Origin: Comamonadaceae bacterium OTU4NAUVB1
Lineage (GTDB): Bacteria; Pseudomonadota; Gammaproteobacteria; Burkholderiales; Burkholderiaceae_C
Assembly: GCA_024372625.1 (NCBI GenBank)
Contig: CP099605.1
Span: 1,860,001-1,924,000 of the forward strand
Reading direction: 5' to 3'
Length of the DNA stretch: 64,000 nt
Below the pieces are notes generated by a model, which saw nothing but the letters and a program-made list of their open reading frames with translations, was not told where the DNA came from and ran no database searches. Of the stretch, positions 55,090-57,361 are shown piece by piece. Position 1 is the first letter of the stretch. Each line of letters starts with the position of its first letter. The position numbers and the translations under genes were made by a program.

Positions 55090-57132
55090 TCAGGCCGGCT
55101 TGAGCGATCCGGGGACGATCTTCGCATCCCAGTCGCGCATCATCGACTGCACCTCGGGGTCGTTGTGGATCGCTTCCTCGGCCGCGCGCTGGCGGGCCTC
55201 GGCGGCGAGCCGGTTGCGACGCGCGGGACTGTCGGTGACGCCACCGATCTCGATCGCGATCGTCACGCCGTGGCCGAGCGCGGCGAGCGCGGCCTGCAGG
55301 CGGTCGCGGCTCGACGGCTGGTTGAGGGATTCGCGCTCGACGCGCAGCAGCCAGCGGTCGACGTCGCGCGCGACCAGTTGCGACTGCAGCGCCAGTTCCC
55401 GCGCCAGCGCGGTGATGGCTTCGGCCACCACCATCCGCGTGACGGTGGCATGCCAGAAATCGCCGGCCTCGCTGGGCTCGACCGGCTGCGCGCCGGCCGC
55501 TCCGGCGCCGCCCGCCGCGACGCGACGCACCGCATCGCCGGCGTCCACCACCGACCGGTCGCGCGACGCCTCCCGGCCCGGGGGTTCGGGCTGCACGCGC
55601 ACCGGAATGGCCAGCACGCGGTCGGCCGGCGGCAGTTCGTCGGGTGGCTCGCCGTCGTCGGGATGCCGGACATCGACCGCCGACGCCGGCACGGACGCCT
55701 CGCGCACCGGCAGACGATGCCCGTGCGGCGCCGTGGCGCGGGACACGAAGGACGACGCCATCGTCGACGGCGCGGCGGGCGTGGCGGGCGTGGCGGCCAT
55801 CGGGCTCGTGGCGGCGATGGGCGATGGCGATGGCGCGGACGCCGCGACGCCGCTCACCGGCGCGGGACGTTCGACCTGCGCCTGGACACCGTCCGAAGCG
55901 GCCGTCGGCACGCGGCCGGTGGGCACCGCACGCGCCGCCGCATCCGGCATCGGACACTCACGCGGCGGAGTTTTTTTTTCCTGCTCGGACGGTGCCGTCC
56001 CTTCCTGCGCGCGCCCGCCCGGTGGCTTGAAGGCCAGCAGCCGCAGCAGCACCATCGTGAGCGCCGCGTATTCGTCGGGGGCCAGGCCGAGTTCGCCGCG
56101 TCCGTGCAGGCACAGGCTGTAGAGCAGTTGCGTCTCGTCGGGGGGCATGGCGGCGGCGAGGCGCGCGGTCTCGGCGGCATCGGGATCGGCGTCGTTCGAC
56201 GCCGCGGCGGCTGCGCGCGAGGGCACCGCCTGCAGCACGGCCATCGACTGCAGCACGGTGGTCATCTCCTCCAGCGTCGACGCCGCGGCGATGCCCTCGC
56301 GCCGCAGGGTCTCGGCGGTCTCGACGACCGTGCGGCCGTCGCCGCGCGCGAGCGCGTCGATCAGGCCGAAGACATGGCCGCGGTCGGCACTGCCGAGCAT
56401 CTGGCGCACGCCGTCCTCGCGCAGCGCGCCGTTGCCGAACGCGATGGCCTGGTCGGTCAGGGAAAGCGCGTCGCGCATCGATCCGCGCGCCGCCCTCGCG
56501 AGCAGGCGCAGCGCCTGCGGCTCGGCCTCGACCTGCTCGGTCGCGAGCACCTGCGTCAGGTGCTCCAGCACGGTCTCGGGCGCCATCGGGCGCAGGTTGA
56601 ACTGCAGGCAGCGCGACAGCACCGTGACCGGCACCTTCTGCGGATCGGTCGTGGCGAGGACGAACTTCAGGTACTCCGGCGGCTCCTCCAGCGTCTTGAG
56701 CATCGCGTTGAACGCGGTGTTCGTGAGCATGTGCACCTCGTCGATCATGAAGACCTTGAAGCGCCCCTGCACCGGCTTGTAGACCGCCTGCTCCAGCAGG
56801 GCCTGCACCTCGTCGACGCCCCGGTTGGACGCGGCGTCGAGTTCGGTGTAGTCCACGAAACGGCCGGCGTCGATGTCCCGGCAGGCCTGGCACACGCCGC
56901 ACGGATGCGCCGTGATGCCGCCCTGCCCGTCGGGTCCCTGGCAATTGAGGGACTTGGCCAGGATGCGCGAGACGGTGGTCTTGCCGACGCCGCGCGTCCC
57001 GGTGAACAGGTAGGCGTGATGCAGCCGACCGGTGGTCAGCGCGTTGGACAACGCCTGCACCACGTGCTCCTGGCCGACCATTTCCTCGAAGTTGCGGGGC
57101 CGGTATTTGCGAGCGAGCACGAGATAGGACAT
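55090..57132 (-). CDS. dnaX: DNA polymerase III subunit gamma/tau
   Basis: Clamp-loader ATPase, 680 residues for the full tau form. Walker A GTRGVGKT (45-52), a four-Cys zinc module (about 64-85), DEVH (131-134) and sensor 1 near SRC are in the first 220 residues; domain III ends near residue 370. A linker rich in Pro/Ala (375-520) leads to the tau-specific C-terminal domain. At residues 385-387 the mRNA has nine consecutive A, followed by a hairpin and a -1 frame stop four codons later, so a gamma form of about 391 residues is predicted. The ATG at 57132 gives the normal MSYLVLARKYRP start. Confidence 0.96.
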   Translation of the reverse strand: MSYLVLARKYRPRNFEEMVGQEHVVQALSNALTTGRLHHAYLFTGTRGVGKTTVSRILAKSLNCQGPDGQGGITAHPCGVCQACRDIDAGRFVDYTELDAASNRGVDEVQALLEQAVYKPVQGRFKVFMIDEVHMLTNTAFNAMLKTLEEPPEYLKFVLATTDPQKVPVTVLSRCLQFNLRPMAPETVLEHLTQVLATEQVEAEPQALRLLARAARGSMRDALSLTDQAIAFGNGALREDGVRQMLGSADRGHVFGLIDALARGDGRTVVETAETLRREGIAAASTLEEMTTVLQSMAVLQAVPSRAAAAASNDADPDAAETARLAAAMPPDETQLLYSLCLHGRGELGLAPDEYAALTMVLLRLLAFKPPGGRAQEGTAPSEQEKKTPPRECPMPDAAARAVPTGRVPTAASDGVQAQVERPAPVSGVAASAPSPSPIAATSPMAATPATPAAPSTMASSFVSRATAPHGHRLPVREASVPASAVDVRHPDDGEPPDELPPADRVLAIPVRVQPEPPGREASRDRSVVDAGDAVRRVAAGGAGAAGAQPVEPSEAGDFWHATVTRMVVAEAITALARELALQSQLVARDVDRWLLRVERESLNQPSSRDRLQAALAALGHGVTIAIEIGGVTDSPARRNRLAAEARQRAAEEAIHNDPEVQSMMRDWDAKIVPGSLKPA
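55935..55979 (-). other. dnaX A9 slippery site with downstream hairpin
   Basis: On the minus strand GAAAAAAAAAC spans codons 385-388 (A run 55979-55971). Two bases later CCGCCGC (55968-55962) can pair with GCGGCGG (55941-55935), with an inner TCCG/CGGA stem. A shift to the -1 frame reads N-S-A-A and stops (TGA ending at 55958). E. coli dnaX makes gamma by -1 frameshifting and Thermus dnaX by slippage on A9; this arrangement has elements of both. Confidence 0.8.
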
Positions 57133-57261: not shown

Positions 57262-57361
57262 GTTGACGGGCCTCCCCGCATGGTGAAGCGGCCAACCGGG
57301 TCAGGTGGGGAACCAAGCAGCCCTAACTGCGTAGTCAGTGCCGGGGGTAAGGCTCGTCAAC
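57262..57361 (+). ncRNA. ffs: signal recognition particle RNA, small 4.5S type
   Basis: A long hairpin closes with GTTGACGGG (57262-57270) pairing with CTCGTCAAC (57353-57361). The apical half carries the Ffh-binding motif GTCAGGT, a GGAA tetraloop and AAGCAGCCC. It binds Ffh to target membrane proteins. Ends are judged from the base pairing. The poxB stop on the other strand is only about six bases away, so the transcript end must run into poxB. Confidence 0.93.

Follow-up and report, generated by a model that had tools for sequence, protein, structure and literature searches.

A conserved run of nine adenines in dnaX of Comamonadaceae, a predicted transcriptional slippage signal for a gamma-like product

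The window analysed in this study, a stretch of 64,000 nt from Comamonadaceae bacterium OTU4NAUVB1 (contig CP099605.1, positions 1,860,001 to 1,924,000), carries dnaX on its minus strand. A single open reading frame holds the clamp-loader ATPase, domain III (Pfam match at residues 239-367) and tau domain V (551-672), and it is followed on the same strand by ybaB/ebfC and then recR. A bacterial small SRP RNA (57265-57361, plus strand) adjoins dnaX and is divergent from it. The features of the gene that are discussed below are as follows.

57132..55090, minus strand: dnaX, DNA polymerase III tau, 680 codons and 680 aa (open reading frame and Pfam domain matches)
55971..55979, minus strand: putative A9 slippage run, codons 385-388, in the frame GAA AAA AAA ACT
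55926..55968, minus strand: GC-rich hairpin downstream of the run, by folding, -25.7 kcal/mol
55958..55960, minus strand: TGA, first stop in the -1 frame, after AAC TCC GCC GCG; reached by mRNAs with A10, A7 or A13, or by a -1 ribosomal shift
55854..55856, minus strand: first stop in the +1 frame, 38 codons past the run; reached by mRNAs with A8 or A11

Both the nine A's and the -1 frame stop four codons after them lie where a sequence-only reading of this DNA had placed them. The run is found about 57% along the gene, 18 residues beyond where the domain III match ends. A product shifted into the -1 frame would consist of DnaX residues 1-387 and the tail NSAA, so ending in EKKNSAA; at 391 aa and 42.1 kDa (computed), it agrees with the earlier prediction of a form of about 391 residues with the tail KKNSAA, ending just after domain III. 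The predicted +1 frame product has 425 aa and 46.5 kDa. Its Arg-rich tail of 38 residues is encoded at 55854-55970 (minus strand), and the computed pI of the whole product is 9.1.

No A9 run was expected in the window and one was found. Across the 4.66-Mb genome there are seven separate runs of at least nine, and the six outside dnaX each adjoin a GC-rich inverted repeat of the terminator type, as judged by eye. Next to the dnaX run, too, there is an inverted repeat, namely the hairpin, yet the run sits in a conserved coding frame, and its presence there is not due to chance. On the plus strand the same sequence is a T9 following a GC inverted repeat, the form of an antisense terminator; a terminator scan of the window, which covered loops of 3-8 only, gave no match.

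Three samples of relatives were read at this position. Among genomes of named species, the best 80 of at least 584 relatives, A9 was present in 79/80 and A10 in 1/80, at the same position in each, in a sample biased by the fact that one of the six search patterns spanned the A9 site. The genera in this sample are Variovorax, which a taxonomy lookup places in the Comamonadaceae, and Xenophilus, Pseudacidovorax, Rhodoferax, Curvibacter, Acidovorax, Paracidovorax, Polaromonas, Caenimonas, Ramlibacter and Hydrogenophaga, which we take to belong to the same family. A whole-protein search of the window's own genus (51 genomes, 49 matched and 48 readable, the match in G121 being of only 130 residues) gave A9 in 47/48 dnaX genes and A8 in the other one (L093); four dnaX genes of this sample are identical to loci titled Variovorax. 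With one genome taken per genus of the family (60 genomes, 57 matched, 57 read), exactly nine A's in the same frame were seen in 34/57 dnaX genes, and 23/57 were without them. Outside the family and within the order, 39 dnaX genes were matched and 37 read (G089 and G111 were left out), and none of the 37 had a run in the window's frame at codons 340-410.

On a tree of DnaX residues 1-365 (95 rows), the run changes three times (bootstrap range 2-3), a pattern that can be read as one gain (node support 100/99) and two losses, in L152 and L156, the genera of which show the same or a partial loss. Changes that break the run had been named in advance as what would speak against a programmed site. 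They are seen in L152 and L156, and L093 has its A8, while 34 of the 36 genes in the family clade keep the run. In L093 the A8 lies at codon 384, the zero frame meets TGA immediately, and relatives of about 90% identity carry A9; our guess is a homopolymer error in the assembly, and possibly the gene is a variant in which tau is made by slippage.

Stops in the shifted frames were counted in 151 unique A9 genes, and control positions were taken 15-115 codons downstream. A stop in the -1 frame comes within 10 codons in 150/151 genes, compared with 19% at control positions. The sequence-only reading had suggested checking relatives for the A run and the early -1 stop, and both are conserved. The +1 frame stops within two codons in 143/151 genes (4.4% at control positions), and both frames stop within 16 codons in 149/151 (9.6%). 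When one gene per genus is used, both stops are present in 32/34, against a mean of 3.0 and a maximum of 8/34 in 300 codon shuffles. The +1 stop is built in various ways, as CTG-A (120 genes), CTA-A (7), CTA-G (4) or GTA-A (3). Exceptions to the rule of two stops are L125 and the window's own gene, in which the -1 stop comes after four codons and the +1 stop only after 38, and which by comparison has evidently lost the nearby +1 stop common to its relatives. It is because of this loss that the mechanism had seemed open and the gene E. coli-like, and since the nearby +1 stop is missing, the window's gene alone cannot tell slippage from -1 frameshifting.

The run opens with GAA or CAA as its first codon, or with AAA in the gene that has A10, and its fourth codon is ACT, ACA, ACC, ACG, AGT or AGC. 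Outside the run, AAA accounts for 31% of Lys codons and GAA for 40% of Glu codons in the 151 A9 genes, and there are only eight adjacent Lys-Lys pairs elsewhere in all of them. Since the encoded residues differ from gene to gene but the A's persist, selection seems to keep the A's rather than the amino acids. In A9 genes outside the window's genus, the codon before the run shows a bias of its own, being GCT in 57 of 83 Ala codons compared with 11% gene-wide.

The earlier proposal, which saw in the site features of the two known mechanisms, ribosomal frameshifting with a hairpin and polymerase slippage, included a hairpin two bases past the run. The hairpin exists, in a stretch of 74-77% GC, and its folding energy was equalled or bettered by 8 of 200 dinucleotide shuffles (z -1.97). 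In a comparison with codon shuffles of the downstream sequence, with the stem constrained to start 3-10 nt after the run, the window's hairpin did not stand out (p 0.32); only 4 of the 34 family genes gave a stem better than the shuffles (p ≤0.05) and 30 did not, with a mean p of 0.44 and mean energies of -11.5 kcal/mol compared with -9.8 kcal/mol for shuffled sequence, and one of the 34 control-position means, that of L124, was undefined. Windows of 42 nt placed 5 nt past the run had a mean z of -0.83 (control means -0.46 to 0.65), and 45-nt windows placed 0 and 15 nt past it gave z values of -0.51 and -0.45. The hairpin in the window is probably incidental, and a conserved frameshift stimulator at this place is unsupported. 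There may be a weak downstream stimulator, because the downstream sequence is mildly more structured than the controls. Of the earlier proposal, the programmed event is strongly supported, with the A9 conserved, and the idea of a site with features of both mechanisms is weakened, p for the hairpin being above 0.05 both here and in 30/34 genes.

Upstream of the run, 54-nt windows ending 5 nt before it had a mean z of -1.23, with 13/34 below -1.5 and a lowest control mean of -0.57. A slippage cassette of a Roseiflexus IS, as described in excerpts of a review (PMC5009743), has a stem-loop that abuts the run upstream. A Roseiflexus-like arrangement was considered for dnaX and rejected, as no stem was found whose 3' end kept a constant position beside the run, and the upstream excess of structure is a hint only.

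As judged from sequence, a programmed event at the A9 run, giving a gamma-like product, is strongly supported. The run is predicted, with good though not full confidence, to be a site of programmed slippage (realignment) in transcription, like the one found in dnaX of Thermus thermophilus. Polymerase slippage is favoured because the exact length of nine and both stops are conserved and the hairpin is not consistent; stops in both frames point the same way, as a -1 ribosomal shift requires only the -1 stop, whereas a polymerase that gains or loses A's has a use for the +1 stop too. RNA polymerase would stutter on the nine A's and produce dnaX mRNAs of differing run length, those with 9 (or 9 ± 3n) A's specifying full-length tau and those in the -1 frame stopping after NSAA to give gamma, with 391 aa and DnaX domains I-III but lacking the C-terminal tau domains. 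In almost every A9 relative the +1 frame also stops at once, and every out-of-frame mRNA would give gamma, while in the window's genome, the second stop being lost, +1-frame mRNAs would specify the form of 425 aa. That slippage occurs, how efficient it is and that gamma is used are inferred from the comparisons. Nine A's are described as efficient for polymerase slippage in vivo in excerpts of a review (PMC5009743). The window's genome has both tRNA-Lys UUU and tRNA-Lys CUU. An argument from these tRNAs is loose, because the CUU form was found by exact pattern in only 25/34 A9 genomes, with none in 9/34, incomplete genomes among them.

In Thermus, dnaX has an A9 with stops in both non-zero frames and is subject to transcriptional slippage (PMC1088944, PMC5009743), and there are said to be two tRNA-Lys genes (PMC5009743; both sources in excerpt). 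The likenesses to the window are the A9 on the sense strand, tau encoded in one open reading frame, two tRNA-Lys genes and, in the window's relatives, nearby stops in both non-zero frames. The differences are that Thermus belongs to another phylum, that its run is said to lie seven-eighths through the gene (excerpts of PMC1088944), that the +1 stop in the window is 38 codons off, and that slippage here is a prediction from sequence. With dnaX of E. coli the window shares the gene, the kind of end product, the early -1 stop and an in-frame slippery A heptamer. Unlike E. coli, where the heptamer is A_AAA_AAG, the window has A_AAA_AAA within the A9, followed by ACT, and there is no consistent stem, while a +1 stop is also conserved in its relatives. 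In the window an AGGA stands immediately upstream of the run, presumably too close for the Shine-Dalgarno spacing of E. coli. Poly-A runs are also known from dnaX genes split over two open reading frames (a GeneTack cluster with Chlorobium, Chloroherpeton and others), for which transcriptional realignment has been proposed (excerpts of PMC3711429); in those genes tau needs the shift, whereas here tau is unshifted, except possibly in L093. In Blochmannia dnaX, poly-A slippage has likewise been proposed, but there the poly-A carries an indel, and the effect of slippage would be to restore a tau region that is out of frame beyond the gamma site (excerpts of PMC3017870).

Other explanations of the run were weighed against the same data. 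A programmed -1 shift of the ribosome like that of E. coli, with a slip on A_AAA_AAA, aided by the hairpin and ending at the -1 TGA, is unlikely. It can call on the heptamer, which lies in the right frame within the A9 and counts against a reading of slippage alone, on the nearly universal -1 stop in A9 genes (150/151), on the hairpin in the window with the mild mean excess of downstream structure in relatives, and on the presence of an E. coli-type site in one genus of the clade. Left unexplained by it are the +1 stops (within two codons in 143/151 genes) and the use of nine A's rather than seven; the hairpin it needs is inconsistent, with 4/34 genes at p ≤0.05, and A_AAA_AAA is reported, in excerpts of a review, to shift far less readily in E. 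coli than A_AAA_AAG does (PMC5009743). Stops in both frames would be accounted for if ribosomes slid both ways on the A run, or if polymerase slippage and ribosomal shifting were mixed, so that both frames were fed, and poly(A) sliding that ends at out-of-frame stops has been demonstrated in an E. coli system (excerpts of PMC4363877). The same excerpts describe little truncated product on A9 or A10 in E. coli cell-free sliding, and robust product on A11, and the dnaX run is kept at nine, the length reported for efficient polymerase slippage in vivo (PMC5009743, in excerpt); we regard sliding or a mixture as quite improbable.

It might also be that nothing is programmed here, and that a Glu-Lys-Lys linker motif with unusual codons has been kept by inertia. 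The run does lie in a low-complexity linker and has been lost in some lineages. Yet it is missing in only 2 of 36 clade genes although AAA is the minor Lys codon, Lys-Lys pairs elsewhere number only eight in 151 genes, stops in both frames are far above those of codon shuffles, and the genome's six remaining runs of nine resemble terminator tracts, all of which makes inertia very hard to believe.

Within the A9 clade, the genus g38 shows an apparent switch from polymerase slippage to another mechanism. In L152 there is no A9; the gene has TCA AAA AAG CCT GA at codon 379, which places the E. coli heptamer A_AAA_AAG in frame and a -1 stop one codon after it. This site is present in 5/5 g38 genomes (L152; L234-L238), and eight successive codons, AGT GCC GCC GAG CCG TCA AAA AAG, are identical in all five, against a background in which a single codon is kept at only 102 of the 321 conserved residues among the first 365. 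About 15 nt upstream of the heptamer is a GGAG, within GGG AGT in four genomes and AGG AGT in the fifth. No consistent downstream stem was found in the g38 genes (p 0.12-1.00 against codon shuffles). In the five genomes (completeness 78-99%), exact-pattern matches to tRNA-Lys were all UUU, and tRNA-Lys(CUU) was not found, the four candidates for it among matches with two mismatches being no tRNA. The set of Lys tRNAs may favour one or the other mechanism, according to excerpts of a review (PMC5009743), and g38 agrees with this idea. A tie between this set and the g38 switch is suggestive only, because 9/34 A9 genomes are also without CUU by exact pattern, and loss of tRNA-Lys(CUU) as the cause of the switch is, for the same reason, only partly supported. 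It could be proposed that most of the family, which its named members mark as Comamonadaceae, makes gamma by polymerase slippage and that one genus, in which no tRNA-Lys(CUU) was found, has switched to E. coli-type A_AAA_AAG frameshifting near the same place, a natural experiment in which gamma itself is selected and the tRNA-Lys set permits the switch; our judgement of this proposal is evenly balanced. If it is true, selection keeps gamma itself and not the route to gamma.

Among the papers listed in the literature searched, no report of dnaX slippage in Comamonadaceae was seen, one paper that mentions both dnaX and Burkholderia bringing in the latter solely for a different gene, and an earlier mention is possible; what we infer is a conserved Thermus-type slippage signal for gamma in a family without such a report among those sources. 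According to excerpts of a review (PMC3290774), a frameshift signature in dnaX has not been kept in most bacteria, and these may produce no gamma. Strong selection across a family for a gamma-making signal, probably one of polymerase slippage, is an argument that the family benefits from gamma, and whether it does becomes testable through the apparent swap of mechanism in one genus.

Two further sets of genes show runs in other states. In genus g33 (L239-L248), A9 is present in 3/10 genes, each with the stop of one frame at least 19 codons off, and 6/10 are without it, while in L242 a contig end cuts the gene near the site; the slippage system seems to be decaying in this genus. In other families of the order, runs in the third phase occur in L176 (A9, codon 389) and L230 (A8, codon 379), and others lie further along the dnaX linker, in L101 (A9, codon 519), L178 (A8, codon 421) and L181 (A10, codon 427). 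Some of these runs of 8-10 A's have a stop right after them in a shifted frame, and they are possibly independent inventions.
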